Positions 11,673 to 64,000 of a stretch of 64,000 nt of DNA are shown piece after piece (the stretch's first letter is position 1; every line of letters starts with the position of its first letter). Where the stretch lies: assembly GCA_029237695.1 (NCBI GenBank), contig CM055279.1, positions 62,779,586 to 62,843,585 of the forward strand, in the 5' to 3' direction. The notes under the pieces are model-generated. The model was not told the DNA's origin, made no database searches, and worked only from the letters and a program-made list of their open reading frames with translations. Origin of the DNA: Conchocele bisecta (lineage: Eukaryota; Mollusca; Bivalvia; Lucinida; Thyasiridae). The translations under genes and the position numbers were made by a program.

Positions 11673-11673
<1 letters not shown>

Positions 11674-11723
<50 letters not shown>
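11674..11723. repeat. Homopolymer of 50 T inside a satellite unit
   Basis: Where other units read 'gatggcgttcgcgaaa', this one has 50 consecutive T between 'gatggcg' and 'cgcgaaa'. Nothing else is inserted, so it is either an expansion of the native TT or a sequencing/assembly artefact. Confidence 0.9.
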
Positions 11724-14700: not shown

Positions 14701-16536
14701 CTGCCATGACTTCAACTGACCACCATACCCGTAAAGTTACTTCAGGCCCTTAGCCGACGGTGCCGCGGATACCGGGGCCCATGCCTACGTCGCCATACTA
14801 GTGGGTACCGGCACCTTCGTCTGGGGGGCTAGACGCCATACCCTTTTGATTTGCCCCTCCAATGATGGCGTTCGCGAAAAATGCCATGACTTCAACTGAG
14901 CACCATACCCGCAAAGTTACTTCAGGCGCTTAGCCGACGGTGCTGCCGGACACCGGGACCTCTGCCCTACGTCGCCATACTAGTGGGTACCCGGCATCTT
15001 CCTCTGGGGGGCTAGCCGCCATTACCCTTTTGAATCGGCCCAACTCGATTTTCAGATTTCGTGAAGTATGCTATGGCATCAACCGGTCCACCATACCCGC
15101 AAAGTTACTTTAGGCCCTTAGCCGACGGTGCCGTCGTACACTTGGGCCTCTGCCCTACCGCCGTATACCAGTCGCTGCCCGGCACCTTCCTCTGGGGGCT
15201 AGCGGTCGCGCCCTTTTCACTTGCCCCTCCGGTGGTGGTTTTCGCGAACTGCCATGACTTCAACTGACCACCATACCCGTAAAGTTACTTCAGGCCCTTA
15301 GCCGACGGTGCCGCCGGATACCGGGGCCCATGCCCTACGTCGCCATACTAGTGGGTACCCGGCACCTTCGTCTGGGGGGCTAGCCGCCATACCCTTTTGA
15401 TTTGCCCCTCCAATGATGGCGTTCGCGAAAAATGCCATGACTTCAACTGAGCACCATACCCGCAAAGTTACTTCAGGCGCTTAGCCGACGGTGCCGCCGG
15501 ACATGGGACCTCTGCCCTACGTCGCCATACTAGTGGGTACCCGGCACCTTCCTCTGGGGGGCTAGCCGCCATACCCTTTTGAATCGGCCCAACCTCGATT
15601 TTCAGATTTCGTGAAATATGCTATGGCATCAACCGGCCACCATACCCGCAAAGTTACTTCAGGCCCTTAGCCGACGGTGCCGTCGTACACTTGGGCCTCT
15701 GCCCTACCGCCGTATACCAGTCGCTGCCCGGCACCTTCCTCTGGGGGCTAGCGGTCGCGCCCTTTTCACTTGCCCCTCCGGTGGTGGTTTTCGCGAAACT
15801 GCCATGACTTCAACTGACCACCATACCCGTAAAGTTACTTTAGGCCCTTAGCCGACGGTGCCGCCGGATACCGGGGCCCATGCCCTACGTCGCCATACTA
15901 GTGGGTACCCGGCACCTTCGTCTGGGGGGCTAGCCGCCATACCCTTTTGATTTGCCCCTCCAATGATGGCGTTCGCGAAAAATGCCATGACTTCAACTGA
16001 GCACCATACCCGCAAAGTTACTTCAGGCGCTTAGCCGACGGTGCCGCCGGACACCGGGACCTCTGCCCTACGTCGCCATACTAGTGGGTACCCGGCACAT
16101 TCCTCTGGGGGGCTAGCCGCCATACCCTTTTGAATCGGCCCAACCTCGATTTTCAGATTTCGTGAAATATGCTATGGCATCAACCGGCCACCATACCCGC
16201 AAAGTTACTTCAGGCCCTTAGCCGACGGTGCCGTCGTACACTTGGGCCTCTGCCCTACCGCCGTATACCAGTCGCTGCCCGGCACCTTCCTCTGGGGGCT
16301 AGCGGTCGCGCCCTTTTCACTTGCCCCTCCGGTGGTGGTTTTCGCGAAACTGCCATGACTTCAACTGACCACCATACCCGTAAAGTTACTTCAGGCCCTT
16401 AGCCGACGGTGCCGCCGGACACCGGGGCCCATGCCCTACGTCGCCATACTAGTGGGTACCCGGCACCTTCGTCTGGGGGGCTAGCCGCTATACCCTTTTG
16501 ATTTGCCCCTCCAATGATGGCGTTCACGAAAAAATG

Positions 16537-17010
16537 CGCCCCGTGCAGGCACCGGGGCGGGATCAACTGATCCTGAGAATAGTGCTGCAGTAGCCATTGC
16601 TTGTCGTAAAAGGCGACTAAACTGGCTTAACGATTGGGTTCATACTTTCCGGAACCCACTATACCGGATTTGGCCCTCATGTACATTTTTGGCTTTCTTG
16701 TATGTGAGAGTTGAGTCGGGCTATTGCCCCTATGCCCCATATATAGTAGATTAGCGCTAATCCTATTACTTTTAGGGGATGGGATAAAATGATGCTGGTG
16801 TGGCGAGGGCCTGGCACCAGATCAGGTTGTTCTAATTTCAGGACAAATATATATTTTGATTGTAAATATTGAGTTCTGAAGTTGGATTTACCCCCTTGGA
16901 CAGGTGGATATGGGACTCGACCCGTTGACCGTCTGCGTGTAGACTCCCTGAGGCTTGTACCTCTATGTCAGAAAAGCGGACGTTAAACCCTATTCACTCA
17001 CTCACTCACT
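16537..17010 (+). mobile_element. SINE-like retroelement inserted in the satellite
   Basis: A 474 bp non-satellite block begins 'cgccccgtgcaggcaccgg' and ends 'cgttaaaccctattcactcactcactcac'. The ACTC simple-repeat tail and the flanking duplication ('cacgaaaaaatg' at 16525-16536, 'cacgaaaaatg' at 17011-17021, matching the satellite) mark a retrotransposed non-LTR element. A related copy is at 49604-50003, sharing 'tttggccctca', 'cctattttaggggaaggg'-like and 'ggttattctaatttcagg'-like words. No open frame with reverse transcriptase motifs is present, so it is a SINE or a LINE 3' end. Confidence 0.75.
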
Positions 17011-18364
17011 CACGAAAAATGCCATGACTTCAACTGAGCACCATACCCGCAAAGTTACTTCAGGCGCTTAGCCGACGGTGCCGCCGGACACGGGACCTTT
17101 GCCCTACGTCGCCATACTAATGGATACCGGCACCCCTTCCTCTGGGGGGCTAGCTGCCATACCCTTTTTGGAATCGGCCAACCTCGATTTTCAGATTTCG
17201 TGAAATATGCTATGGCATCAACCGGCCACCATACCCGCAAAGTTACTTCAGGCCCTTAGCCGACGGTGCCGTCGTACACTTGGGCCTCTGCCCTACCGCC
17301 GTATACCAGTCGCTGCCCGGCACCTTCCTCTGGGGGCTAGCGGTCGCGCCCTTTTCACTTGCCCCTCCGGTGGTGGTTTTCGCGAGAATGCCATGACTTC
17401 AACTGACCACCATACCCGTAAAGTTACTTCAGGCCCTTAGCCGACGGTGCCGCCGGATACTGGGGCCCATGCCCTACGTCGCCATACTAATGGGTACCCG
17501 GCACCTTCGTCTGGGTGGCTAGCCGCCATACCCTTTTGATTTGCCCCTCCAATGATGGCGTTCGCGAAAATGCCATGACTTCAACTATGAGCACCATACC
17601 CGCCAAAGTTTACTTCAGGTGCTTAGCGACGGTGCCGCCGGACACCGGGACTCTGCCCTACGTCGCCATACTAGTGGGGGTACCCGGCACCTTCCTCTGG
17701 GGCTAGCCGCCATACCCTTTTGAAATCGGCCCAACCTCGATTTTTCAGATTTCGTGAAATATGCTATGGCATCAACCGGCCACCATACCCGCAAAGTTAC
17801 TTCAGGCCCTTAGCCGACTGTGCCGTCGTACACTTGGGCCTCTGCCCTACCGCCGTATACCAGTCGCTGCCCGGCACCTTCCTCTGGGGGCTTGCGGTCG
17901 CGCCCTTTTCACTTGCCCCTCCGGTGGTGGTTTTCGCGAAACTGCCATGACTTCAACTGACCACCATACCGTAAAGTTACTTCAGGCCCTTAGCCGACGG
18001 TGCCGCCGGACACCGGGGCCCATGCCCTACGTCGCCATACTAGTGGGTACCCGGCACCTTCATCTGGGGGGCTAGCCGCCATACCCTTTTGATTTGCCCC
18101 TCCAATGATGGCGTTCGCAAAAAATGTCATGACTTCAACTGAGCACCATACCCGCAAAGTTACTTCAGGCGCTTAGCCGACGGTGCCGCCGGACACTGGG
18201 ACCTCTGCCCTACGTCGCCATACTAGTGGGTACCCGGCACCTTCCTCTGGGGGGCTAGCCGCCATACCCTTTTGAATGTTAACCTTTAATATACAGTCGA
18301 ACCTGCTCGGGCGGTCACCTTTAATCAGCGGTCACCGCCGTTAAGCGGCCACTTCAAATTCCCC

Positions 18365-19464: not shown

Positions 19465-20475
19465 CATATAATAAAACAATTATTGACTAGTAAGCCATAT
19501 AATCTGATATTCTATTGCTCACTAGTCAATAATTATGTCTCCCCCATGAATGGGGAGACATTGGTTTTGGCTTGGTTGTCTGTCCGTCTGTCCGTCCGGG
19601 CAAACGAGAGGGCACTTGTTGGGTACAAAAGTACCAAACAAATGCTCTCTCGTTTGCTGGGCAAGCTTTTTAGGGGTCTTATTGGGTAGGGTTAGGGTTA
19701 GTGTTGGGTATTTTTGGGTATTTTTTATACAGTAAAAACCCAACAAGTATCCATTCATAGGAACTCCGTCCGACGCCCGTCCGTCCGTCTGTGTCCGTCA
19801 CAAAATTTGTGTCGTGCATATCTCCAAAAGTTTTTGAGTTACAGTCGTGAAACTTTACAGGAATACTTGTCATAGTGTGAAGTTGCGCACCTGGGGTTTT
19901 AGATGCGGATTCATCCTGTATTTACGGAGTCATGGCCCTTGACTTAGCGAAAATTGAGGATTTTCAACTTGTGTCGCGCGTATCTCCAAATGTATTTCAG
20001 TTAGAGTCGTGAAACTTTACAGAAATACTGGTCATAGTGTGAATTTGCGCACGTGGGGTTTTAGATGTGGACTCATCCGGTATTTACGGAGTTATGGCTC
20101 TTGACTTAGCGAAAATTAGGGATTTTCAACTTGTGTCGTGCCTATCTCCAAATGTATTTCAGTTAGAGTCGTGAAACTTTACAGGAATACTGGCCATCGT
20201 GTGAAGTTGCGCACCTGGGGTTTTACATGCGTATTCATCCAGTATTCACAGAGTTATGGCCCTTGACTTAGTGAAAAGTGGGGATTTTCAACTTGTGTCG
20301 CGTGTATCTCCAAAAGGATTTCAGTTAGAGTCGTGAAACTTTCCAGGAATACTGGCCATCGTGTGAAGTTGCGCACCTGGGGTTTTAGATGTGGATTCAT
20401 CCTGTATTTACGGAGTTATGGCTCTTAACTTTGTGAAAAGTGGGGATTTTTAACACAGGTGTCACCAAAGCACTT
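19465..20475 (+). mobile_element. Hairpin, GTCC and ~160 bp tandem-core element (copy 1)
   Basis: An inverted pair ('ttattgactagtaa' / 'ctagtcaataatta') precedes a hairpin with arms ATGTCTCCCCCAT and ATGGGGAGACAT at 19534-19560. A GTCC run follows, then about four ~160 bp units containing 'tatctccaaa', 'gtgaaactttacaggaatac', 'gaagttgcgcacctgggg' and 'gagttatggc(c/t)cttgac'. This architecture resembles bivalve 'pearl'-type elements, which are regarded as non-autonomous Helitron relatives. The longer copy is at 41308-42835. No protein is coded. Confidence 0.7.
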
Positions 20476-41307: not shown

Positions 41308-42835
41308 ATATAATAAAACAATTATTGACTAGTAAGCCATATAATCTGATATTCTAGTCAATAATTATGTCTCCCCCATGAATGGGGAGACATAGTGGTT
41401 TTGGCTTGGTTGTCCGTCGTCCGTCCGTCTATCCGTCCGGGCAAACTGTATTTATGGAGTCATGGCCCTTGACTTAGCGAAAATTGAGGATTTTCAACTT
41501 GTGTCGCGCGTATCTCCAAATGTATTTCAGTTAGAGTCGTGAAACTTTACAGGAATACTGGTCATCGTGTGAAGTTGCGCACCTGGGATTTTAGATGCGG
41601 ATTCATCCAGTATTCACGGAGTTATGGCTCTTGATTTAGTGAAAAGTGGCCATTTTCAACTTGTGTCGCGCGTATCTCCAAAAGTATTTCAGTTAGAGTC
41701 GCGAAACTTTACAGGAATACTGGTCATCGTGTGAAGTTGCGCACCTGGGGTTTTAGATGTGGATTCATCCTGTATTTACGGAGTTACGGCCCTTGACTTA
41801 GCGAACATTGGGGATTTTCAACTTGTCGCTCGTATCTCCAGATCTATTTCAATTAGAGTCGTAAAACTTTACAGGAATACTGGTCATCATGTGAAGTTGC
41901 GCACCTGGGTTTTTTAGATGCGGATTCATCCAGTATTCACGGAGTTATGGCCCTTGACTTTGTGAAAAGTGGGGATTTTCAACTTGTGTCGCGCGTATCT
42001 CCAAAAGTATTTCAGTTAGTCGCGAAACTTTACAGGAATACTGGTCATCGTGTGAAGTTGCGCACCTGTGGTTTTAGATGCGGATTCATCCAGTATTCAC
42101 AGAGTTATGGCCCTTGACTTAGTGAAAAGTGTGGATTTTCAACTTGTGTCGAGTGTATCTCCAAAAGGATTTCAGTTAGAGTCGCGAAACTTTACAGGAA
42201 TACATGTACTGGTCATCGTGTGAAGTTGCGCACCTGGGATTTTAGATGCGGATTCATCCAGTATTCACGGAGTTATGGCTCTTGATTTAGTGAAAAGTGG
42301 CCATTTTCAACTTGTGTCGCGCGTATCTCCAAAAGTATTTCAGTTAGAGTCGCGAAACTTTACAGGAATACTGGTCATCGTGTGAAGTTGCGCACCTGGG
42401 GTTTTAGATGTGGATTCATCCTGTATTTATGGAGTTATGGCTCTTGACTAGTGAAAAGTGGGGATTTTTAACTTGTGTCTCGCGTATCTCCAAATGTATT
42501 TCAGTTAGAGTCGTGAAACTTTGCAGGAATACTGGTCATCGTGTGAAGTTGCGCACCTGGGGTTTTAGATGCGTATTCATCTGTATTCACGGAGTTATAG
42601 CCCTTGATTTAGTGAAAAGTGGGGGTTTTCAACTTGTGTCGCGCGTATCTCCAAATGTATTTCAGTTAGAGTCGTGAAACTTTACAGGAATACTGGTCAT
42701 CGTGTGAAGTTGCGCACCTGGGGTTTTAGATGCAGATTCATCCTGTATTCACGGAGTTATGGCCCTTGACTTAGTGAAAAGTGGGGATATTTAACTTGTG
42801 TCGCGCGTATCTTCACAAGTATGCAGGAAATACAA
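41308..42835 (+). mobile_element. Hairpin, GTCC and ~160 bp tandem-core element (copy 2)
   Basis: The same left side as copy 1 (hairpin at about 41368-41393, GTCC run near 41412) is followed by about eight tandem units. Spacing measured on 'gaagttgcgcacc' is 160-162 bp (41571, 41733, 41893, 42054). Units alternate between 'gcggattcatccagtattcac' and 'tggattcatcctgtatttacg' versions. The open frame of 89 codons at 42408 is a repeat artefact. Confidence 0.8.
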
Positions 42836-50092: not shown

Positions 50093-53000
50093 CCGTGCCG
50101 CTCGTGCTTCGCGAAACCAACAACCGCAACTGGTCTGTCTGGTCGCTCGGCCACGGAACGGCTCGTAATGCTGTGTGCCGCTCTGTGGTCGGTCGGCCAC
50201 GGAATGGAGTTCTGTGCAGTGGCGACGATTGCTGGTGTCTCTCGGGCTTCACGGCGGCGGAATGGGGCCCGGTGCCGATCGTGCTTCGCGAAACCAACCA
50301 CCGCAACTGGTCTGTCTGGTCGCTCGGCCACGGAACGGCTCGTAATGCAGCGTGCCGCTCTGTGGTCGGTCGGCCACGGAATGGAGTTCTGTGCAGTGGC
50401 GACGATTGCTGGTGTCTCTCGGGCTTCACGGCGGCGGAATGGGGCCCGGTGCCGATCGTGCTTCGCGAAACCAACCACCGCAACTGGTCTGTCTGGTCGC
50501 TCGGCCACGGAACGGCTCGTAATGCAGCGTGCCGCTCTGTGGTCGGTCGGCCACGGAATGGAGTTCTGTGCAGTGGCGACGACAGCTGGTCTCTCTCGGG
50601 CTTCTCGGCGGCGGAATGGGGCCCGGTGCCGATCGTGCTTCGCGAAACCAACAACCGCAACTGGTCTGTCTGGTCGCTCGGCCACGGAACGGCTCGTAAT
50701 GCTGTGTGCCGCTCTGTGGTCGGTCGGCCACGGAATGGAGTTCTGTGCAGTGGCGACGATTCTGGTCTCTCTCGGGCTTCTCGGCGGTGTAATGGGGCCC
50801 CGTGCCGATCGTGCTTCGCGAAACCAACAACCGCAACTGGTCTGTCTGGTCGCGTCGGAACCATGGAACGGCTCGTAATGCTGTGTGCCGCTCTGTGGTC
50901 GGTCGGCCACGGAATGGAGTTCTGTGCAGTGGCGACGACGGCTGGTCTCTCTCGGGCAACTGGTCGGTCTGTCGGCTCGGTCCACCCGGAACGGCTCGTA
51001 ATGGCCAGGCGGGGCCGGCTTGGTGTCTGCTTATCGGCCAACGGACGGCTTCGTTATGGCAGAGCGGCCGCCGCTCTGTGGTCGAATCGCCACTGAAATG
51101 GATGTCCCCTGGTCGCTTCCGGCCAAACCGAACGGCTCGAAATGGCGGCGGGCCGCTCTGAGGTCGAATTCGGCCACGGAATGGAGTTCTGTGGCATCGG
51201 CGACGATTGCTGGTCTCTCTCGGGCTTCTCGGCGATGGAATGGGGCCCCGTGCCGATCGTGCTTCGCGAAACCAACCACCGCAACTTGTCTGTCTGGTCG
51301 CTCGGCCACGGAACGGCTCGTAATGCAGTGTGACGCTCTGTGGTCGGTCGGCCACGGAATGGAATTCTGTGCAGTGACGACGACGGCTGGTCTCTCTCGG
51401 GCTTCTCGGCGGCGGAATGGGGCCCGGTGCCGATCGTGCTTCGCGAAACCAACCACCGCAACTGGTCTGTCTGGTCGCTCGGCCACGGAACGGCTCGTAA
51501 TGCAGCGTGCCGCTCTGTGGTCGGTCGGCCACGGAATGGAGTTCTGTGCAGTCGCGACGATTCTGGTCTCTCTCGGGCTTCTCGGCGGCGGAATGGGGCC
51601 CCGTGCCGATCGTGCTTCGCGAAACCAACCACCGCAACTTGTCTGTCCGGTCGCTCGGCCACGGAACCGCTCGTAATGCGGTGTGCCGCTCTGTGGTCGG
51701 TCGGCCACGGAATGGAGTTCTGTGCAGTGGCGACGAGTCTGGTCTCTCTCGGGCTTCTCGGCGGCGGAATGGGGCCCCGTGCCGATCGTGCTTCGCGAAA
51801 CCAACAACCGCAACTGGTCTGTCTGGTCGCTCGGCCACGGAACGGCTCGTAATGCTGTGTGCCGCTCTGTGGTCGGTCGGCCACGGAATGGAGTTCTGTG
51901 CAGTGGCGACGACGGCTGGTCTCTCTCGGGCTTCTCGGCGGCGGAATGGGGGCCCGGGGCGATCGTGCTTCGCGAAACCAACAACCGCAACTGGTCTGTC
52001 TGGTCGCTCGGCCACGGAACGGCTCGTAATGCAGCGTGCCGCTCTGTGATCGGTCGGCCACGGAATGGAGTTCTGTGCAGTCGCGACGATTGCTGGTCTC
52101 TCTCGGGCTTCTCGGCGGCGGAATGGGGCCCCGTGCCGATCGTGCTTCGCGAAACCAACAACCGCAACTGGTCTGTCTGGTCGCTCGGCCACGGAACGGC
52201 TCGTAATGCTGTGTGCCGCTCTGTGGTCGGTCGGCCACGGAATGGAATTCTGTGCAGTGACGACGACGGCTGGTCTCTCTCGGGCTTCTCGGCGGCGGAA
52301 TGGGGCCCCGTGCCGATCGTGCTTCGCGAAACCAACCACCGCAACTTGTCTGTCCGGTCGCTCGGCCGCTCTGTGGTCGGTCGGCCACGGAATGGAGTTC
52401 TGTGCAGTGGCGACGAGTCTGGTCTCTCTCGGGCTTCTCGGCGGCGGAATGGGGCCCCGTGCCGATCGTGCTTCGCGAAACCAACCACCGCAACTTGTCT
52501 GTCCGGTCGCTCGGCCACGGAACCGCTCGTAATGCGGTGTGCCGCTCTGTGGTCGGTCGGCCACGGAATGGAGTTCTGTGCAGTGGCGACGAGTCTGGTC
52601 TCTCTCGGGCTTCTCGGCGGCGGAATGGGGCCCGGTGCCGATCGTGCTTCGCGAAACCAACCACCGCAACTGGTCTGTCTGGTCGCTCGGCCACGGAACG
52701 GCTCGTAATGCAGTGTGCCGCTCTGTGGTCGGTCAGCCACGGAATGGAGTTCTGTGCAGTGGCGACGACGGCTGGTCTCTCTCGGGCAACTGGTCTGTCT
52801 GGTCGCTCGGCCACGGAACGGCTCGTAATGCAGCGGGCCGCTCTGTGGTCGGTCGGCCACGGAATGGAGTTCTGTGCAGTCGCGACGATTGCTGGTCTCT
52901 CTCGGGCTTCTCGGCGATGGAATGGGGCCCCGCCCGTGGCCGATCGTGCTTCGCGAAACCAACCACCGCAACTGGTCTGTCTGGTCGCTCGGCCACGGAA

Positions 53001-53600
53001 CGGCTCGTAATGCTGTGTGCCGCTCTGTGGTCGGTCGGCCACGGAAAACCCTGGAGTTCTGTTCAGTGGCGACGACAGCTGGTCTCTCTCGGGCTTCTCG
53101 GCGGCAGAATGGGGCCCGGTGCCGATCGTGCTTCGCGAAACCAACAACCGCAACTGGTCTGTCTGGTCGCTCGGCCACGGAACGGCTCGTAATGCTGTGT
53201 GCCGCTCTGTGGTCGGTCGGCCACGGAATGGAGTTCTGTGCAGTGGCGACGACGGCTGGTCTCTCTCGGGCTTCTCGGCGGCGGAATGGGGCCCCGTGCC
53301 GATCGTGCTTCGCGAAACCAACAACCGCAACTGGTCTGTCTGGTCGCTCGGCCACGGAACGGCTCGTAATGCAGCGTGCCGCTCTGTGGTCGGTCAGCCA
53401 CGGAATGGAGTTCTGTGCAGTGGCGACGACGGCTGGTCTCTCTCGGGCTTCTCGGCGGCGGAATGGGGCCCGGTGTCCGATCGTGCTTCGCGAAACCAAC
53501 AACCGCAACTGGTCTGTCTGTCGCTCGGCCCACGGAACGGCTCGTAATGCAGCGTGCCGCTCTGTGGTCGGTCGGCCACGGAATGGTCGGCCACGGAATG
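50093..53600. repeat. GC-rich tandem array, 177 bp unit, about 20 copies
   Basis: Landmark 'gtgccgatcgtgcttcgcg' recurs at 50272, 50449 and 50626 (177 bp apart). Each unit holds two copies of 'tcggccacggaa', a 'ccgctctgtggtcggtcgg' block and 'ggtctctctcgggcttc'. Divergent units lie at 50940-51190. Because 177 is divisible by 3 and the unit lacks stops in several frames, open frames of up to 974 codons exist on the minus strand (53955-51031) and 344 or more codons in other overlapping frames. Their products are low-complexity and mutually overlapping, so I treat them as a consequence of the repeat. Confidence 0.93.
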
Positions 53601-53960
53601 AAACGACTCTGGCCTCTCGGCCACGGAACGACTCAGGGTCAAGCGCCAGGCTAACCACTGAAGGAACAGAGCGTCTCAACACAACTCTGTTTATGTTTAT
53701 TTTAAAAAAAAATCCCTCTGGCCTCTCGGCCACGGAACGACTCTGTTTATTTTTCCAACATTTTTCTCTCTGGCCTCTCGGCCACGGAACGACTCTGAGC
53801 GAACACAATGTGGCCCCTCGGCCACGGAACGACTGAGCGATCACACTGTGGCCCCTCGGCCACGGAACGACTCTGTTTATTTTTGCAACATTTTTCTCTC
53901 TGGCCTCTCGGCCACGGAACGACTCTGGGCGAACACACTGTGGCCCCTCGGCCACGGAAT
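53601..53960. repeat. Minisatellite, 'ctcggccacggaacgactctg' core (left block)
   Basis: Seven or so copies of a core reading 'ctcggccacggaacgactc' are separated by A/T-rich spacers such as 'tttatttttccaacattttt'. The core is the same word found twice in each 177 bp unit to its left. Confidence 0.85.
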
Positions 53961-53984
53961 GGAGAAGTATTTACATGTTTACAT

Positions 53985-54215
53985 CAACTATTTACATGCA
54001 GTCAAACTATTTGCAAAGTCGAATGAATATCTTATTATCTACATATTTACATGAATGCATTATAATTCACTATTCTATTTACAAAGTGCAATGAATATCA
54101 CAGTTGGCTTATTATGTACATGTTTACATGAATGCATTATAATTAACTATTTACAAAGTGGAATCTATATCACAGTTGGCTTATTATCTACATATTTACA
54201 TGAATGCATTCTCAA
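53985..54215. repeat. ~75-80 bp AT-rich tandem repeat, three copies
   Basis: Units contain 'tttacatgaatgcatt', 'aactatttacaaagt' and 'tatcacagttggcttatta'. The array is short and bounded by the minisatellite on one side and the non-repetitive island on the other. Confidence 0.75.
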
Positions 54216-54440
54216 TAAGTATCACAGATGGGTACATGAAATAAATAGTTTGACAATCACAGTACAATAAATAAACCGAATACAATAAATAATATGTACA
54301 ATAAATTCTCTCTCGCTCTTTCACACCTCGACCGCACACACTGCAAGCAGCAGGTTGTTGTACAATGTTACACATAAGTGAATATACAGAAGGGCCTAAA
54401 TTGTGCGCCAGTACGCACGGACGACACCTACTACTCTTAC

Positions 54441-54636
54441 CTTGCACCGCTACGTACTTGCGAAGGAACACAATAATTGCTTTACTGTACATACTTCTCT
54501 TTCTGCGCCGAGCCGGTTCGGTGAAGGTGAGGTCGGGCAACGTAGACCACGCGTCTTCTCCCCCCGTCACCGAGTGGTCAATTACCCCCGCTGCCTCCAA
54601 CATCGCTTGCTTATTCTCTTTACTGCGTTTATTCAT
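54441..54636 (-). CDS. Candidate first coding exon, unknown product
   Basis: On the minus strand an ATG at 54636 opens 65 codons without low-complexity repeats, ending in a consensus donor GTGCAAG|GTAAGAG (boundary at 54441). The encoded peptide starts MNKRSKENKQAMLEAAGV and has a basic ARRRKRS cluster near residue 45. I recognise no domain. Reading through gives an open frame to 54196, but that part lacks character. It is head-to-head with the plus-strand candidate exon at 54910. It could belong to a host gene or to the first exon of a mobile element; no acceptor or second exon could be identified. Confidence 0.25.
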
Positions 54637-54704
54637 GTTTCACTGAAAACAGACAAACAGAACATTAGACAAGGTATGCATGCATGCCCCGCGCATGCTG
54701 TATA

Positions 54705-54875
54705 CCGACCTGCTGGCTGATTCTCCGTTATCGTATCTACGGAATGACCCACCGAGCGACTCACTTCTCGGGACCCGCTATCCTGGCTAGCTGGCTGCTG
54801 GCTGATTCTCCTCGGATTATCGTATCTACGGAATCGTATCTACAGCGACTCTCTTCTCGGGACCTACTATCCGTT
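54705..54875. repeat. ~88 bp tandem duplication between the two candidate exons
   Basis: 'ctgctggctgattctcc', 'tatcgtatctacggaat' and 'cgactc(a/t)cttctcgggacc' occur in order at about 54708-54783 and again at 54796-54872. The pair lies where a shared upstream region of the two divergent candidate exons would be. Confidence 0.75.
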
Positions 54876-54909
54876 TCGCGTCGCTTTGGACGACAGCGCG
54901 TGCCGACCG

Positions 54910-55042
54910 ATGGAGGACAGCGCGTGCGTGCGACCCGGCGACGACTTTAATGCCAGTGCTAGCGGCACCCGAACAAGACGGAAATACATCGAGCTATTCC
55001 ACATCTCGCACGACCGCAGTCTGCGGGAGAACTACCAAACCG
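54910..55042 (+). CDS. Candidate first coding exon, unknown product
   Basis: An ATG at 54910 opens a GC-rich frame of 44 codons ending in a consensus donor AACCG|GTAAGG (boundary at 55042). The peptide starts MEDSACVRPGDDF and ends in a charged segment RTRRKYIELFHISHDRS. No domain is recognised. A duplicated 'gacagcgcgtgc' word precedes the ATG. The next exon would have to lie beyond the minisatellite that starts at 55228, so the model cannot be completed from this window. Confidence 0.25.
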
Positions 55043-55227
55043 GTAAGGCACCATGCAGGCAGCCAGCGCTGGCTGCATGTTCCGCAGTCGCCTCTCTCAA
55101 ATATAGCAGGTGTTGCTGACTTGCCTCCTCGACGCACATCGGCCTCTGTGTTTCCTTCTTCACGCCAATGTGTTGCTGTAGGTACACATTTCCACAACTG
55201 GTCTGTCGGGTCTCACTCCGCTCATTT
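55043..55227. other. Non-repetitive island, no further exon seen
   Basis: This stretch follows the donor site and ends where the minisatellite resumes. No acceptor with an open downstream frame is convincing. Confidence 0.4.
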
Positions 55228-56760
55228 TCCGTCTGGCCCCTCGGCCACGGAACGACTCTGTTTTTTTTCCGGCAAAAACACAAGTCTCTAGCCAAGCACC
55301 AGGCTAACCACTGAATGAACAGAGCGGCCCAGCGAGACAACATCTGGTCTCTCGGCCACGGAACGACTCTGTTTATTTCACTCTGGCCTCTCGGCCACGG
55401 AACGACTCTATTTATTTCCAACATTTTTCACTCTGGCCTCTCGGCCACGGAACGACTCTATTTTTTTCCGGCAAAAACACAAGTCTCTAGCCAAGCACCA
55501 GGCTAACCACTGAATGAACAGAGCGGCCCAGCGAGACAACATCTGGCCTCTCGGCCACGGAACGACTCTGTTTCCTCTGGCCTCTCGGCCACGGAAGGAC
55601 TCTATTTATTTTCCAACATTTTTCACTCTGGCCTCTCGGCCACGGAACGACTCTGTTTACTCTGGCCTCTCGGTCACGGAACGACTCTGTTTCCTCTGGC
55701 CTCTCGGCCACGGAACGACTCTATTTATTTTTCCAACATTTTTCACTCTGGCCTCTCGGCCACGGAACGACTCTGTTTACTCTGGCCTCTCGGCCACGGA
55801 ACGACTCTGTTTCCTCTGGCCTCTCGGCCACGGAACGACTCTATTTATTTTTCCAACATTTTTCACTCTGGCCTCTCGGCCACGGAACGACTCTGTTTAC
55901 TCTGGCCTCTCGGCCACGGAACGACTCTGTTTCCTCTGGCCTCTCGGCCACGGAACGACTCTATTTATTTTTCAACATTTTTTTTTTCACTCTGGCCTCT
56001 CGGCCACGGAACGACTCTATTTATTTTCCAACATTTTTCACTCTGGCCTCTCGGCCACGGAACGACTCTATTTATTTTTCCAACATTTTTCACTCTGGCC
56101 TCTCGGCCACGGAACGACTCTGTTTACTCTGGCCTCTCGGCCACGGAACGACTCTATTTATTTTTCCAACATTTTTTCACTCTGGCCTCTCGGCCACGGA
56201 ACGACTCTGTTTACTCTGGCCTCTCGGCCACGGAACGACTCTGTTTCCTCTGGCCTCTCGGCCACGGAACGACTCTATTTATTTTTCCAACATTTTTCAC
56301 TCTGGCCTCTCGGCCACGGAACGACTCTATTTATTTTTCCAACATTTTTCACTCTGGCCTCTCGGCCACGGAACGACTCTATTTATTTTTCCAACATTTT
56401 TTTTTTCACTCTGGCCTCTCGGCCACGGAACGACTCTGTTTACTCTGGCCTCTCGGCCACGGAACGACTCTATTTATTTTTCCAACATTTTTTTTTTTCA
56501 CTCTGGCCTCTCGGCCACGGAACGACTCTGTTTACTCTGGCCTCTCGGCCACGGAACGACTCTGTTTCCTCTGGCCTCTCGGCCACGGAACGACTCTATT
56601 TATTTTTCCAACATTTTTCACTCTGGCCTCTCGGCCACGGAACGACTCTGTTTATTTTTCCAACATTTTTCACTCTGGCCTCTCGGCCACGGAACGACTC
56701 TATTTATTTTCCGGCAAAACACAAGTCTCTGGCCTCTCGGCCACGGAAGGAGTCTAACCA
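55228..56760. repeat. Minisatellite, 'ctcggccacggaacgactctg' core (main block)
   Basis: About 35-40 cores of 'ggcctctcggccacggaacg' plus 'actctg' alternate with a few fixed spacers: 'tttactct', 'tttcctct', 'tttatttttccaacattttt' and 'ttttccggcaaaacacaag'. Units come in short and long forms arranged in repeating groups. A larger block beginning 'ccggcaaaaacacaagtctc' recurs (55268 and 55467). The open frame of 424 codons (55514-56788) is repeat translation. Confidence 0.95.
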
Positions 56761-57655
56761 CGCTCGACTTGCCCTCGTTTCCATGTAATCTCATTCGATC
56801 TACACGTGGGTGCACTTTCCCACCGTTCACGACCAATCACCGACGCTTCCAGCGAATGTGTACACATGGGCACACTTCCACCGTTCCACGACCAATCACC
56901 GACGCTTCAGCCTAACCCTAACCCTAACCCTCTCGGCCACGGAACGACTCTGTTTACTCTGGCCTCTCGGCCACAGAACGACTGTTTCCTCTGGCCTCTC
57001 GGCCACGGAACGACTATTTATTTTTCCAACATTTTTCACTCTGGCCTCTCGGCCACGGAACGACTCTATTTATTTTTCCAACATTTTTCACTCTGGCCTC
57101 TCGGCCACGGAACGACTCTATTTATTTTCCGGCAAAACACAAATCTCTGGCCTCTCGGCCACGGAATGAGTCTAACCACGCTCGACTTGCCCTCGTTTCC
57201 TGCGAATGTAATCTCATTCGATCTACACGTGGGTGCACTTTCCCACCGTTCACGACCAATCACCCTCGTTTCCAGCGAATGTGTACACATGGGCACACTT
57301 CCACCGTTCCACGACCGATCACCGACGCTTCCAGCGAATGTGTACACATGGGTGCACTTTTCCACCGTTCACGACCAATGACCGACGCTTCCAGCGAATG
57401 AGTACACATAGACACACTTCCACCGTTCCACGACATTGCACTTCCAGCCAATGTGTACATATGGACACACTTCCACCGTTCCACAACATTCCACGTTCCA
57501 CCGAAGGTGCACCCGCGGGTGCACAACTTCCATCGCTCGCGCGTACACTTCCACCTCGGATACACAGTTCCACAGCGCTTCCACTAAATGTGCACCCAAC
57601 ATTCCCGTTTCACCGGAATGCGTACCGGCGGATACACAGTTCCACAGTTAGACTC
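56761..57655. repeat. ~60 bp tandem repeat, interrupted by the minisatellite
   Basis: Units carry 'cttccagcgaatgtgtacac', 'atgggtgcactt' and 'ccaccgttc(c)acgacc'. They occur at 56761-56905 and, after a minisatellite block at 56932-57180, at 57181-57655, with increasing divergence to the right ('tgcacccgcgggtgcac'). Open frames of up to 141 codons in several frames follow the repeat and are not genes. Confidence 0.88.
56911..56931. repeat. Short interstitial telomere-type repeat
   Basis: Three and a half tandem copies of CCCTAA, the animal telomere motif, stand exactly at a junction between the ~60 bp repeat and the ctcggccacggaacg minisatellite. Confidence 0.85.
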
Positions 57656-57849: not shown

Positions 57850-58365
57850 TTAATCCATATCAGAAGCCCTTACAAACTGATTTTTACGAACTTCACACTC
57901 AACACCTCCAATTTCAACACGTCCAGCACTTTTAACATGCCGCTCCTGAGCGGAGTTGGGGGTATAGTGAGTGGATTTTGGTGACGACATCAACCAAGCT
58001 AATATTAATCCTACTCCTCCAGCAGCAGCGATATACATAGGGGTAATCGAAGATTGAACCATACCATTAGATTTTTGTGTATAACGCACCCCCAACTGCA
58101 CCTGTGCCGTTGGAAGTGTGGTTGAAGGCGGTATACAAGCCGGTGGTTTACATTCGTCAATAAGTTTTTTCTTCAATTTTCTACTTAACGCGGACGCCTT
58201 ACCAGCTGCTATGGATTTAGGGTTTTTTGTAACACGATCTGGGGGTGGTGTTGGTGTTGGAGGTGCGGTTGGAGTTGGAGTTGGAGGTGCGGTTGGAGTT
58301 GGAGGTGTTGGAGTTGGTATTGAGTGTTGAACTTCAGGAGTGATTGTTGGTGTATCTTCAGACAT
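57850..58365 (-). CDS. Small viral-type membrane protein, Pro/Thr-rich
   Basis: This is an intact 171-codon frame with an ATG at 58365. Residues 17-43 are a Pro-Thr repeat (PTPTPPTPTAPPTPTPTAPP). A basic stretch KLKKKLID follows near 63-70, and one hydrophobic segment (YIAAAGGVGLILAWLM, about 111-126) should span a membrane. The C-terminal ~45 residues are polar. Function is unknown. Location in the same strand group as the packaging ATPase suggests a structural or membrane role in a virion-forming element. It shares the word QVQLGV, with matching flanking DNA, with the next upstream gene. An AATATATAT core lies about 12-20 bases before the ATG. It is the only gene of this element that looks fully open. 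Confidence 0.6.
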   Translation of the reverse strand: MSEDTPTITPEVQHSIPTPTPPTPTAPPTPTPTAPPTPTPPPDRVTKNPKSIAAGKASALSRKLKKKLIDECKPPACIPPSTTLPTAQVQLGVRYTQKSNGMVQSSITPMYIAAAGGVGLILAWLMSSPKSTHYTPNSAQERHVKSAGRVEIGGVECEVRKNQFVRASDMD

Positions 58366-58448
58366 TTTTTTTCGACTGGATATATATTAATTTACAAAAT
58401 TAGGTACAAATTAAATATCTCAACCCCAACATTATTGTTTTGGAAAAT

Positions 58449-58500
58449 ATTTCAACAATGTTGATAAATATTTCAACAATGTTGATAAATATCTCAACAA
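58449..58500. repeat. Tandem 'atttcaacaatgttgataaat' repeat
   Basis: Two to three direct copies of a ~21 bp unit stand between two genes of the element. Each has an internal inverted pair CAACA/TGTTG. The position, just upstream of the 58365 start, allows a regulatory role, but no direct evidence supports one. Confidence 0.7.
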
Positions 58501-58556
58501 CTCCCAATTCCAACATGCCGCTCCTGAGCTGTAGCGTAGTTGGTGGTTGGATAGAA

Positions 58557-59214
58557 TTATCTAGGGTCTATTCTAATATCGTTTTCAACAGCACCTTCTG
58601 ATACATTTTTTGTAGAGTTAAAATCGTAATGTTTAGCGGTTTTAAGAACAGCGGCGATAGGTGCTAAAAATAATCCTAGTGAATGATAGCGAACGAGCAT
58701 ACTGATCGCAGTCCGGCATCAACAAATGGATCCTCTTTAAGCTCTCGTCTTAATACGTCAGCATTATTGATAGGAATTACTAATTCTAAACAAGATTTAT
58801 AATACTATCACCTAACGTAAATGTCATCATTAATCCAAATTTTGCTTCATATATAGCGTATAATTTAACAATTTCGTCATCACTAAGTTTACTAATCTTA
58901 TCAGATAAATAAAATTGCGATTGTCCTCCGGCAATTATTACCGCCAGTCTATGTCTCTGTGTTTTCAACCAATCATCTTCTACCCCCAACTGCACCTCCG
59001 CTCCAGAGCATGTTGGAAGTGCGGTATCGACTTCATCCAATCTCGATTTGGAGTTGTTGACTATTTTATTATCAATTTTCGGTTTTCGTTTACGTTTACG
59101 TTTTATGGGTTCCAACATGCTCTGGAGCGGAGTTGGATCTTCAATTTCAACCCCCAACATTGTTGGATCGGAATTTAACTCGTTAGATATTTCAATTAGT
59201 AATTCTTCAGACAT
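58557..59214 (-). pseudogene. Small viral-type protein gene, frameshifted
   Basis: The frame starts with ATG at 59214 (peptide MSEELLIEISNEL) and stays open to 58786. The original frame appears to continue by a shift near 58805 to a stop at 58676-58678, and by a second shift into a frame ending at 58557. The N-terminal part is acidic and then has a strongly basic KRKRKRKPKI cluster near residues 36-46. Later segments include SKLSDDEIVKLYAIYEAKFG. The last part (SLGLFLAPIAAVLKTA) could be a membrane segment. Function is unknown. The gene lies just downstream of the ATPase on the same strand. The frame breaks mean it is either decayed or mis-sequenced. Confidence 0.55.
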
Positions 59215-59272
59215 TTTTACCCCCAATTATTCAACGAATTGGAATATAATATATTAATAAATATAAAATATA

Positions 59273-59890
59273 TTAATAAAATTTGTTAATAACTTCGTAA
59301 GAAGTTGGTTGATCAGTTTTTAATATAACGAAAGAGTGTTTATTATTTCTTAATTCTTGTCGTACATTCGAGCGTTCTTCTTTAGTACAAATTACATCAT
59401 TTTCTCGTAGCGTATCCTCTATAGAATCGCGATCTTTACAATGAAAAAGAGCCGTCCACCGAGTCTGTTCTCTTAAATCTTTTAATACGGAATTATATTG
59501 TTGCGTTAAAACCCAACCGCTATGACCAACGTGTCTTCCAGACATCGCGAGTTCAGCTAACGCGTTACGTTTTTTAATAATGTCGATTTTTGCGGAACAG
59601 TCGTCTATTATAAAAAGCGTTCGTCTTCCGATAAATATTTTAGAAAATACTTTTAACCATTTATTAAGATTCTCTCTAGGATTTACCATATAAATTCCGT
59701 CATCGTTATATATCTATTTACGTTCTTTATAACTCGCGTTAAATTCTAATGTCGGGCATAATGTTACTATTTTTTCGAATACACCCGCATATTCTTTTTC
59801 TAAAATATTAAGTACGAATACCGTTTTACTGCAACCAGTTTGTCCACAAATTATTGCGGCATGAGTAGTTTTTATAAAATCTGTGCGCAT
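59273..59890 (-). pseudogene. Packaging-type P-loop ATPase (A32/FtsK-HerA-like), one in-frame stop
   Basis: Starting at ATG 59890, the frame has a Walker A motif GQTGCSKT at codons 16-23. A Walker B TLFIIDD is at about 91-97, and SGRHVGHSGWVLTQQY at about 117-132 fits the third conserved motif of A32-type ATPases. About 205 codons is a normal size for these enzymes, which drive DNA into capsids in Polintons, adintoviruses and related DNA viruses. A single TAG at 59714-59716 (codon 59) interrupts an otherwise continuous frame; both halves are in the same phase. The stop between Walker A and B would abolish function unless read through or erroneous. A perfect palindrome lies 17 bases before the ATG. 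Cellular AAA+ ATPases are an alternative, but the motif 3 form and the neighbours favour the viral family. Confidence 0.78.
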
Positions 59891-59907
59891 TTTTCTAATC
59901 AACAGTG

Positions 59908-59921
59908 CCAATATATATTGG
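59908..59921 (-). promoter_or_regulatory. Putative promoter palindrome of the ATPase gene
   Basis: CCAATATATATTGG is a perfect 14-base palindrome ending 17 bases before the ATPase ATG. Its TATA-like core and the flanks (atcta before, gcact after, read toward the gene) match the copy at 61868-61881 in front of the plus-strand gene, in the same orientation relative to the coding frame. Confidence 0.55.
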
Positions 59922-59926
59922 TAGAT

Positions 59927-60898
59927 ACAGTCAAACTTGTCTTAAGCAAGCGGCCATGGGAAAGTCCAAAATTGCTTGCTTAACACAGGTGGGTGCTTAA
60001 TGGAGGTTCATCTTGGACCGACTTATAACTTGTTCCATATAGATTTATATGTACAATTAATGTACAGTCAAACTTGTCTTAAGTTCATATGTACATCATG
60101 ATATACAGTGTTTACTTTAATTTTGAATACTCATTGATCTAAGCGGCGCCTATGTCAATTAGAAATGCCAAACACAAAATGCGTCTGTGTGTAAAAAAAA
60201 AAAAAAAATCAAAAAAAAAAGAAGAAAAACTGGGATTTCTGAAGCCCCCCCCCCCCCGCCCCCCCCCCCCCCGAATCCGCTACTGGATAATGTAAATACA
60301 ATATGCACAATAGAATGGATTATCAAACAGAACGTTTAATAATTTGATGGGTCAATCGCGTGTTTGTTGTTACAAGATGTACCAGTTCGTCCGAAAATCA
60401 CCAGTTTGTCTGGCGTATGTAGTTAGGCAACGGCCCACGGTCAGCATAGCTCGGCTTATAACAGCAGTCCCCATGCCACGCTCGCTATAACTTGGACATT
60501 ATGATGCATGCAAATTAATCCGTTTAAATTCCCTTAAAATATCATTTATGAACTTGGATGTGCATAAATTCTTTATATTTAGTTAATACCAAACTGAATT
60601 ATCATAAAAATCGGGTTACGTTAACATCGATTGGAAAAAGTTGCAAAAGGACGAAACTACGTAGGTACGAAATCGCCGAAATTGTCCGTGATATTTACAG
60701 ACTTTTTCATGTTTTCTGACAATACAGTTAGCCATATTTGGTTGAAATAAACGCGTGTTTGCATGTGTTTGTTTGTTTGTCTGGTTGAGAGTATTCGGAG
60801 GGAGTTAACTAGAGCGGGTTCATGATCAATTGCTGATAGATATATTGCCGACGTCTTTCGCCACAGTAACCTGTCAATCATGCCACTAAGGGCTGCCT
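59927..60898. other. Insertion of host-type repeats between ATPase and capsid-like gene
   Basis: About 970 bases separate the ATPase promoter from the capsid-like remnant. They contain 'acagtcaaacttgtcttaag' twice (59930 and 60063), an A-run near 60190, a C-run near 60246-60273 and a 'gtttgtttgtttgtctgg' stretch. These look like host interspersed repeats. The open frame 60657-60881 minus has no domain. The block most likely entered after integration of the viral-like element. Confidence 0.6.
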
Positions 60899-61844
60899 TT
60901 ACTTACCAGCTATTGGCTGTACTGTATAAATAACTCGGCCATCAGTTATTATATAAATATATACGGCAACTTGTTCACCACCGTCAGCTAGTTTATGAAT
61001 TTGAAAAGTTACTCCCTCACTCGCGTTAACTACTCGCCGCCCGGACCCGTGAAGTTGATCGTCCTCACTAATCCTCATATCTAGCCAAAGAGCGTATTTT
61101 GTCGTTAAGAATTGTCCGATAGTAACGTCGCTGGTCTCGAGCTTCTTATTAACACAGCTGACGATATTACTCTCATTTTGACCACCACCAAATATTTTCT
61201 TGATTTTGTCCCATTGATGGTATCCGGACATCCCCTGACTAAAAAGTTGATCTATGGATGCTGATTTTATAACGTAAGTTCGTACTCCAATTTATCACCG
61301 AGCCCGCTCTGATAAAATGGTTATTACCGTCTCCAATAGTTCAAAATCTAGAGGAACGAAGAATCTACTGCTATATACTCGAGCTACGGACGGCTTCATC
61401 CTCCGTATTTGCGGTCTTATCGCCCGCATTAATTCTATGTTTATTTACGTTTCTATTCGTTGAAGTGTCTATTCCTTGATATACCGCGTTCGTACGAGTT
61501 GACGCCTTCTTCCAAAGATCTCGATAACAATTGAAAATATCAGAATCGTCTAAAGACGATATCTCATTTCCGCTTATTTTGATGGTAGTTTTCTTCACTA
61601 TCGCTCTACCGATATTTTGTACTATAGTACGGTTCGCATCGGTAGAATTTAGAGAGATCGTAAACGCTAGTCGACAAGTACCTGGAACGATAATGTCATT
61701 AACGCCGAGATTCGGAAATCGAACCAATAGTTGTTGGTTTTGATCTTAAGTAGATGGATTATTTGTCACGACAACGCTCTGCCTGATACCTTTTGCCGCG
61801 TTAGCCTCCCTCAATTTTCTGAACGGTTCTAGTTTATTTCCGTA
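60899..61844 (-). pseudogene. Capsid-like protein gene, broken and internally deleted
   Basis: The frame is open from 61844 to 61371 except for one TAA at 61746-61748. No ATG remains at its start. The segment RFPNLGVNDIIVPGTCRL and a later VQNIGRAIVKKTTIKISG look like beta-strand-rich capsid sequence. After 61371 the frame shifts at least twice. Then a 110-codon frame (61231-60899) holds TSDVTIGQFLTTKYALWLDM and LHGSGRRVV, which I read as the C-terminal part of the same protein with the middle deleted. By resemblance I assign it to the double jelly-roll major capsid proteins that accompany A32-type ATPases, without a structure search to confirm it. It is divergent from the plus-strand gene at 61907 and shares its upstream palindrome region. 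Confidence 0.5.
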
Positions 61845-61867
61845 CTATATATAATACTATATATCTA

Positions 61868-61881
61868 CCAATATATATTGG
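61868..61881 (+). promoter_or_regulatory. Putative promoter palindrome between divergent viral-type genes
   Basis: CCAATATATATTGG ends 25 bases before the ATG at 61907. On the other side a TATATAG-rich stretch leads to the capsid-like gene at 61844, so the palindrome sits in a short divergent intergenic region of about 60 bases. Flanks match the copy at 59908-59921. Being a palindrome it could serve both directions. Confidence 0.55.
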
Positions 61882-61906
61882 CGCTATTGGAGCAATTTTT
61901 ATAAAA

Positions 61907-62745
61907 ATGGAGTTTGATAATGAAGCGTACGATGATAAGGTAGAAGATGATGATGATGATGATTTTAGTGAGTCATATGAGCACTTTGGCGGTGCCAGTG
62001 GATTAGACCCTCGAGCGTTAGATTAACAAGAAGCTGATGCTCTGGAAGGGCAGGAAAATTATGAAAATACCGCTTCTACCATTTTTTCAGCCGTAGGTGG
62101 TAACCCGGATGTAATAGGACAATTTAGTAGTATAGAGGAAATTGATAACCAATCTTCTAGAGATCGTGATAGACTAAGTAATTTCGAGGACGAAGAACGA
62201 AATATACTAGATAGACTAAATACAAATAGATCACACGTTCGTAGACTTATAAGTAATTTGAGAAGTAATTTAAATTCATTACTAACTAGAAATTATCGTC
62301 TAATCGATAGATTGAGAGCATTTTTTAAAGCTAAAGGTTTAAGTTTAAGAACAGTTATTATAGCGTCCGGTATGATAATTACGGCAATAGGTATAGGTCT
62401 TTACGATGTAATATCAACACTCTTAGATACGGGAAGACCTTCTGGAATTACTCCGTCACCTGGACCCTCACCCGGCCCCTCACCCGGACCTCCACCACCC
62501 CCTGGTCCTGGACCGGTTCCGCCAACCCCCGGAAGTGGTATATTAGCCGAGATAAAGAATTTTTACGTCGTATAGCGGATATATTAATAAATTTAGGAAA
62601 GAAAGCGGCATTAGCGCTTCCCGGTGTAATAGGATCTATAGTTGGGTGGTTGCTTAATACGGCTGGTAAAGGGTTTTTAGCTGTTGCCGAAAATTTATGG
62701 TTATTATTATTGGTAATTATCGCGTCCGGAATGGCTATATTTTGA
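61907..62745 (+). pseudogene. Membrane protein with Pro-rich segment, stop and frameshift
   Basis: ATG 61907 opens an acidic N-terminus (a DDDDDD run near codons 14-19). One TAA at codon 40 (62024-62026) interrupts a frame that otherwise continues to 62575. The middle is charged and helical (for example RLINSNLRS-like repeats of Arg/Asn/Leu). A hydrophobic segment (TVIIASGMIITAIGIGLYDV, codons ~150-170) and a PSPGPSPGPPPPPGPGP-type stretch follow. Near a CCCCC run at 62526-62530 the sense frame shifts, and an open frame continues to TGA at 62743-62745. That part has a second hydrophobic region (ALALPGVIGSIVGWLL) and a hydrophobic C-terminus. It is likely a virion membrane or minor structural protein; the function is unknown. 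It is the only gene of the element on the plus strand in this window. Confidence 0.6.
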
Positions 62746-62796
62746 GATAAAATAATGCTAAAATAATGACTCCCCCGATAGTTAATTTGTCGTTAG

Positions 62797-64000
62797 TTAT
62801 TCCGACACTGCTCTTTTTATAACTCTTTGTCGAATTACGGGTGCGTTTACTGAAGGTGGTGGAGGTGGTGTCTTTACGGGTGTCTTTACGAAAGGTGTCA
62901 CATTTTGATTGGGCTCTTTCGATATCTTGGTGACAGTTTTAGCGTTTGTACTCAAATTTATATTATTTATTCCCAATTTTTGTTTTCCGGTGGCAATTAC
63001 TACCTCATTATTATAACCCTTAACACTGTGTATTCCTAAAACCATATTACTAGGGGCCATATACAACCCTATCCCGAATACAAAATTAACCAGAGTTTTA
63101 GTGTATTGTAAAACGCTTTGATATCTTCGAATAGATTCCGGAATACCCACCGGTTCTGAAATGGCGTCCTCGACATTTGCCAAATACTGTTTCTGACTAT
63201 TGAACGCGTTTCCTATACCTATTATAGAACTTTTTGATTGCCCTTGCGCATTTAGTATTGACCATACGTACGTACGAATAGAGTCGTTGATGCGAGAAAC
63301 CCCAGCCTGTGTGAACCCCATACCATTATCTAAAATAAATGTCCCCCATGCTAACTGAACCTAGCTCATCAACCTGCTGTATGTAATTGATGTGCGCTCG
63401 TTTCGGAGGTAACCAATAACATGATGAGACACCACATTTCCTACCCCCAGACACTTCCTGCCCGAATGTCATATTTGCTGGATCAAAATCCCCGGCGTTT
63501 CTACATACGATGTGGTCACCGGACTGATCGCGTCTAAAATTTGTCTGCGTCCATTTTCTGGACTGTCCACGAATGAAAACGTCCCCGATACTAGTGCTGT
63601 TAGTAAATACTTTCTGATGCCAGTCTATATCTTTTGATATACCAAATTCGTCACATATACGCTCGTATGAAGCTTTATTATATGTATTCTGTAAAGGATC
63701 CCATTCATCATTAAATGGTAGAGGTATTTGCATCTCTTTCAACAGTCTCCTGATCGTATAATATACGTGAAAGTTAAATAGGCTCTTACTAAACTGACTA
63801 TCATTAAGTTTCATATGATCTAAAAAAGATACCCCGCATCCGCTTGTGGCGCACCACACGACAAAATTTAGCGGATTCTGCCAAAACTGCATAGGGTTAC
63901 TTATCCAATTTTTTACAACCTTCATGGATGTAATTTTAGGTAATTTATACTTCTCAAATATATCTGGAAATTTTGTGTCGAATCCGAGTCCTAAACTAAC
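62797..64000 (-). pseudogene. Large conserved viral-type protein, cut by window end, one frame break
   Basis: The minus-strand frame is open from the window edge (64000) to a stop at 63326, so the true start is outside; the ATG at 63925 is internal. A second frame, 63321 to 62797, follows at once. The two overlap in sense at a GGGGG run near 63341-63345, where a one-base change would make them continuous, so I treat them as one gene of at least 400 codons. Segments include NFVVWCATSGCGVSFLDHM, FNFHVYYTIRRLLKEMQIP and SSCYWLPPKRAHINYIQQ. The second part has GFTQAGVSRINDSIRTYVWS and, near its end, a PPPPP stretch with basic residues. No catalytic motif is seen. A structural virion protein such as a penton- or fibre-like component is possible but unproven. 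Confidence 0.6.

Follow-up and report, generated by a model that had tools for sequence, protein, structure and literature searches.

The window analysed here is a stretch of 64,000 nucleotides from the bivalve Conchocele bisecta (contig CM055279.1, positions 62,779,586 to 62,843,585; C15:62779586-62843585 in the genome searched, which comprises 1.89 Gb in 1,196 contigs). Its right end, from 57850 to 64000, carries six genes of viral type, which are very probably what remains of a polintovirus, an endogenous DNA virus of the Maverick/Polinton type, in a copy that is divergent and dead. A preliminary description, made from the letters of the sequence, had proposed a degraded element of the Polinton or adintovirus type; the reading frames confirm all six genes where it had put them, as well as its strand layout, with the ATPase and capsid genes on one strand and one membrane protein gene on the other. 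In the following, positions refer to the window, other loci of the same genome are denoted by L and a number, and hydrophobic or membrane segments and proline-rich linkers were judged by eye from translations.

The ATPase, of the packaging type (A32/FtsK-like), is encoded on the minus strand at 59273-59911 by a Walker A piece and a C-terminal piece, which share one frame and are separated by one in-frame stop (59273-59713 and 59714-59941, from stop to stop). It is 55% identical to the ATPase of locus L025 over 192 amino acids, and its two pieces match Pox_A32 in Pfam (E=3.5e-4 and 0.051) as well as, among the PHROGs, the terminase large subunit (E 7.1e-7 and 0.038) and a DnaB helicase (0.043). 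The major capsid protein gene, on the same strand at 60942-61850, is a remnant: it has an early in-frame stop and frame changes, lacks about 117 residues of its middle, is cut at its 3' end by a transposon, and aligns only to residues 6-158, 157-177, 180-195 and 313-419 of the L025 capsid protein. It matches Capsid_N with E=1e-4 and 22.4 bits (cut-off 24), which, like the Pfam matches of the ATPase pieces, is under the curated threshold; beyond the ATPase pieces, the PHROGs gave only one capsid match (E 0.099). Relatives of both genes are plentiful, comprising 614 of 616 scored candidates outside the own genome for the capsid piece and 460 of 467 for the ATPase piece (with Pox_A32 in most of the 120 listed), and they bear out the packaging ATPase and the capsid-like remnant of the preliminary description.

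The large gene lies on the minus strand at 62735-64000, with its N-terminus continuing past the window to about 64117. Frame changes spread it over three frames, the hydrophobic C-terminal end lying in the third (by eye). The preliminary description had called it a conserved 'large unknown', and its conservation holds, since each of the 150 places scored in the own genome, one of them being the window itself, matches with E<1e-93 (11,537 first-look candidates). Its two frames, 62797-63360 and 63326-64000, turn out to be a single broken gene: in 11 of 11 other loci, both parts, the second at least partly, are found in one open frame. In other copies the gene encodes one protein of ~470 amino acids, for which Pfam gave no match and which reaches the hydrophobic end in six of ten aligned own-genome rows, the remaining four ending earlier. 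The window protein is 67% identical to that of L015 over 209 amino acids and 53% over 177. A membrane-type protein with an acidic N-terminus, two hydrophobic segments and a proline-rich linker is encoded by open frames on the plus strand at 61907-62745; its gene is interrupted by an early stop and by a single frame change, and its sequence is 24-38% identical to that of the same-placed gene of other copies. To the left of the ATPase, a small basic protein (58786-59226, minus strand) is 48% identical over 62 amino acids, and 34% over 35, to the product of the gene adjoining the ATPase in L025. The last of the six genes is an open frame for a proline-rich protein of 171 amino acids with one hydrophobic segment (57850-58365, minus strand); neither Pfam nor the PHROGs assign it to a family (LapA_dom comes closest, at E=0.11), and it has no match in the pieces of other copies that were compared.

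At least four of the six genes, those of the ATPase, the capsid, the membrane protein and the large protein, are therefore broken. In addition, a copy of a high-copy transposable element (59926-60941; 1,016 bp) lies between the ATPase and capsid genes. Seven other copies, whose ends nearly coincide with its own, are 96-97% identical to it, and 39 other places match it at 92-97% (40 scored; 1,642 first-look candidates); given the 96-97% identity, the insertion probably took place long after the window lineage had split from its relatives. On the left, where PolB and integrase genes would be expected, satellite arrays extend up to 57484. Their units recur in both orientations in L012, 20-27 kb to the right, and would appear to be genomic arrays rather than repeats of the element.

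About a thousand copies of an abundant family are present in the same genome, and the window copy belongs to a separate lineage that has diverged from them. The number follows from a word of 26 bases taken from the large gene, which occurs at 985 places with at most two mismatches (0 for the reversed control), together with the scored matches. The own-genome copies nearest to the window copy are 77% identical in the capsid piece (the best match other than itself among 150 scored of 8,840 candidates, many with open frames near 432 amino acids) and 67% in the large protein (among the best 150 of the 11,537 candidates); relative to L025 and L015, identities are 72% for the N-terminal part of the capsid, 55% for the ATPase, 48% for the basic protein (62 amino acids) and 67% for the large protein. 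Open frames of the large gene range from 235 to 592 amino acids, and a stop falls inside 18 of the 150 matched stretches. In the capsid tree, the position of the window copy is not resolved and no starred set contains it.

The gene order, which the preliminary description reported correctly and could not assign to a named group, is shared by the other loci of this genome that were checked. The large gene is flanked by a plus-strand membrane gene and a plus-strand 241-amino-acid gene in 11 of 11 best-scoring other loci (L014-L024), and the capsid gene by the ATPase and membrane genes in all four loci checked, L025 and L041-L043; in the latter three, ATPase, capsid and membrane genes stand together (3/3). 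The left side of L025 consists of PolB (in several frames), integrase, a 156-amino-acid gene, the basic gene, the ATPase (218 amino acids), the capsid (431 amino acids) and the membrane gene. PolB adjoins the integrase in two of three left pieces, L025 and L027, the latter with PolB, integrase and membrane gene. Assembled from pieces of different copies, the family order reads PolB, integrase, basic protein, ATPase, capsid, membrane protein, large protein.

It is at this family level that the hallmarks of Mavericks are found. The PolB of L025 (1-618) matches PF03175 above the cut-off of 25.8 (E=7.9e-7, 28.8 bits), the PolB piece of L027 below it (E=6.2e-4, 19.2 bits), and the L025 ATPase matches Pox_A32 with E=1.3e-9 and 38.4 bits (cut-off 22.8). 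The rve integrase domain (PF00665) was detected in three of three open frames of other loci (L033, L035 and L038; E 1.2e-7 to 8e-7); the integrase piece of L025 is 86-96% identical to these frames, and it and the adjoining frames contain stretches resembling the catalytic motifs (by eye). For one copy, on contig C14, a terminal inverted repeat was found (L031 8042-8237 versus L028 1889-1704), 89% identical over 197 bp with the outer 16 bases identical, both ends beginning AGTAGTATATAGGGAG and the large gene lying between them. The outer ends are 14,848 bp apart, at the lower edge of the 15-20 kb range of Mavericks/Polintons, the repeats being assigned to one copy by distance. The 5-bp sequence ACATA stands directly outside both ends, in an AT-rich flank; the target-site duplication of Mavericks/Polintons is 6 bp. 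With PolB and ATPase over their cut-offs, rve just under and inverted repeats in the one copy tested, the check that the preliminary description had called for, made at the level of the family, supports its placement of the degraded element.

Several observations weigh against this interpretation. As the preliminary description had noted, polymerase, integrase and terminal repeat of the window copy itself are not in view: neither PolB nor integrase was found anywhere within the 64-kb window, a comparison of the left side with the right flank yielded no terminal repeat (only satellites and a few matches of 17-26 bp at chance level), and the family's terminal repeat has no match in the window copy. 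The rve scores, 29.7-32.4 bits, are marginally under the cut-off of 32.6 and come from loci other than those with checked capsid neighbours, and the piece of integrase next to the L025 PolB is itself without a Pfam match. Synteny is incomplete in two pieces, each with 500 N: ATPase and capsid genes were not seen in L027, and in L026 only the membrane gene was seen, with neither PolB nor integrase. The Capsid_N match is under the cut-off throughout (47 of 61 capsid members at E<=0.01, best 6.7e-5; the 432-amino-acid frame of L025 at E=1.4e-4 and 21.9 bits versus 24), and a structure model of the capsid half is of low confidence (pLDDT 39, the value that both models made reached only); the capsid is thus a putative one, identified by a sub-threshold profile match. 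The 241-amino-acid gene, without a Pfam match, is a penton candidate by position alone, and no proven penton was found. Lastly, no adenovirus-like cysteine protease was detected in the frames scanned, which are pieces and not a whole element; according to the excerpted text of PMC4028283, 74% of the Polintons studied there have one.

A polymerase does lie within 20 kb to the right, the distance within which the absence of any viral gene would have told against the preliminary description. Pieces of PolB are present in L011:4079-6083, 17.5-19.5 kb past the window end and near satellite DNA. Their identity to L025 is 83-97%, save in a single alignment of 52%, which overlaps another of 91%; for the ATPase, capsid and large gene of the window, identity to the abundant family is 55-77%. 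We have therefore rejected them as the window copy's own polymerase; they are too close to the abundant family and probably represent a separate fragment of it. A stretch resembling an integrase C-terminus lies beside them (by eye).

Outside the own genome, many of the 120 capsid relatives listed sit on megabase-size contigs, which suggests that these are assembled eukaryotic chromosomes. One capsid relative, P0083, also matches the window ATPase (61% over 71 positions), and P0015 starts with an ATPase-like motif (by eye). For the N-terminal piece of the large gene, four of 51 candidates outside the own genome are relatives. Pattern scans of IMG/VR contigs, which reach only relatives with shared short conserved words, yielded no confirmed relative, nor did a pattern scan of bacterial and archaeal genomes; sequence searches of the PDB and a scan of NCBIfam gave nothing usable. 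Three ATPase relatives, P0170 (in a cluster of 102 members), P0202 and P0226, are named in records of Candidatus Thiodiazotropha. These bacteria are symbionts of lucinid clams, and the three sequences probably stem from Maverick DNA of the host that ended up in the symbiont's bin.

Pox_A32 and Capsid_N, which the ATPase and capsid match, are families of large DNA viruses, as would be expected of the remnant of an integrated giant virus (Nucleocytoviricota). The one unit measured, however, is ~15 kb long between its inverted repeats, the family includes PolB and an rve integrase, and no other gene of large viruses was seen in the frames scanned; furthermore, the capsid protein of a Hydra Polinton likewise matched only the PBCV-1 capsid according to the excerpted text of PMC4028283, a parallel to the Capsid_N match of the family here. 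We thus regard a giant virus as very improbable. That host or retrotransposon genes merely look viral by chance is harder still to credit: several small frames are without a family match and rve integrases occur in retrotransposons too, but the ATPase and capsid have hundreds of relatives, the gene order is conserved, and PolB and the A32-type ATPase score over their cut-offs.

A different question is whether the viral copy has been domesticated by its host, for instance as an antiviral or RNA-producing locus. Several of its frames are still long, and nothing direct speaks for such a role; with at least four of six genes broken and a transposon in the middle, we consider it about as improbable as the giant virus.

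Maverick/Polinton elements as a kind are already known and are reported to be abundant in the hard clam; the window copy adds a divergent member. The family shares with them PolB, an rve-type integrase, a packaging ATPase, a capsid-family protein, the length of ~15 kb and the inverted terminal repeats. It differs in the lack of a protease in the frames scanned, the weak match of its capsid to Capsid_N and the possession of the ~470-amino-acid protein, which matches nothing in Pfam and has a hydrophobic segment at its C-terminus, while the window copy in particular is without PolB, integrase and repeats. ATPase and capsid gene blocks also occur in Polinton-like viruses and virophages, which were compared by description only. 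Adintoviruses are defined by a hexon found by BLASTp with reference members, an OTU domain in PolB and an integrase chromodomain. Likewise by description only, the family resembles the animal-associated adintoviruses and 'meldviruses', some genomes of which join PolB and an rve integrase to virion genes similar to ones found in large DNA viruses (Buck et al., 2024; excerpted text of PMC11071296). High copy number is a further likeness: the excerpted text of PMC8905726 gives 7,091 and 6,453 Maverick copies, 1.69 and 1.93% of two assemblies, for Mercenaria mercenaria, with a genome of 1.86 Gb, 19 chromosomes and about 10% satellites; the genome searched here is close to it in size, and the window is likewise rich in satellites.

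To the right of the window, the copies diverge in gene content. The window copy has a 241-amino-acid gene at about 64149-64874, whose product is 28% identical to its counterpart in other copies, adjoined by a coiled-coil gene with a further piece ~1.3 kb on. At this place the abundant copies have a 186-amino-acid gene, followed by a gene of 173-177 amino acids. Read by eye, the coiled-coil gene would encode a fibre with a lectin-like end, no usable family match being available. Near the right end of the element, the 173-177-amino-acid gene (L028:439-969 and L030:931-1449) scores weakly, below threshold (E 2.3e-4 and 1.2e-3), against the Pfam model of an RTX N-terminal domain, a resemblance that probably reflects shared composition only. 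Small zinc-finger genes were also noticed, with weak Pfam matches at L009:4765-5037, near one end of the window copy, and by eye at L031:8632-8922, near the opposite end of an abundant copy.

By analogy with what is known of Mavericks/Polintons, the integrase would insert the linear element DNA, the polymerase would copy it by protein priming from the terminal repeats, and the ATPase would pack it into a double-jelly-roll capsid. The large protein, with its hydrophobic C-terminal segment, and the plus-strand membrane protein may be minor capsid or inner-membrane parts, and the coiled-coil gene a spike or fibre. The window copy can no longer do so, given the damage to four of its genes, the insertion of the transposon and the satellite DNA in the place of PolB and integrase. 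One might speculate further, with considerable doubt, that the family is a distinct animal polintovirus lineage with a membrane-bearing virion, defined by the conserved, membrane-anchored ~470-amino-acid protein; that the gene beside the 241-amino-acid gene is a receptor-binding gene exchanged between copies, jelly-roll-like (186 amino acids) in the abundant copies and a coiled-coil fibre in the window copy; and that the roughly thousand copies, with many frames open, may still be mobile or infectious.

Further repeats are found in and around the window copy. A 28-nucleotide inverted repeat pairs at 26 of 28 positions, as compared with at most 23 in 60 dinucleotide shuffles. Its first arm (59900-59927), containing the palindrome CCAATATATATTGG, is directly upstream of the ATPase, and its second (61862-61889) lies in the gap between the minus-strand capsid and the plus-strand membrane gene. 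The 14-mer CCAATATATATTGG alone is weaker, with two exact copies; nine of 100 shuffles had at least two sites at <=2 mismatches. The case for a shared promoter is weak, as four other copies (L025 and L041-L043) lack the palindrome. A family-wide promoter was rejected: in L025, the best site close to where the ATPase and capsid genes begin has four mismatches, and the best sites in the whole of L041-L043 have four to five, as in shuffles. The sites in L014-L023 concern another gene gap and are little informative. The palindrome is, at most, a feature of the window lineage. Short palindromic repeats of the form CCCCAAC...GTTGG stand in or beside both small frames at 57900-59200 (by eye), and arms of 26 nucleotides, 96% complementary, at 58993-59018 and 59110-59135. 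Elsewhere in the window, satellite arrays occupy 10533-18277, 19807-20454, 41448-42822 and 50095-57484, with units of ~181, 161, 177 and 34-52 bp; some are GC-rich, and a unit of 161-162 bp occurs in two places. Between 23000 and 40000, blocks with TCCCTATATTT and GACG units recur, many spaced roughly 1.6 kb, which suggests a higher-order repeat.

Otherwise, the window copy is an ordinary fossil in a type of genome already known to be rich in Mavericks. Its value lies in the context it has gained: a gene layout that could previously not be assigned is now that of an abundant Maverick/Polinton family, its 'large unknown' gene is shown to be a conserved part of this family, and the copy itself represents a divergent sister lineage of use in dating and in tracing the exchange of genes.

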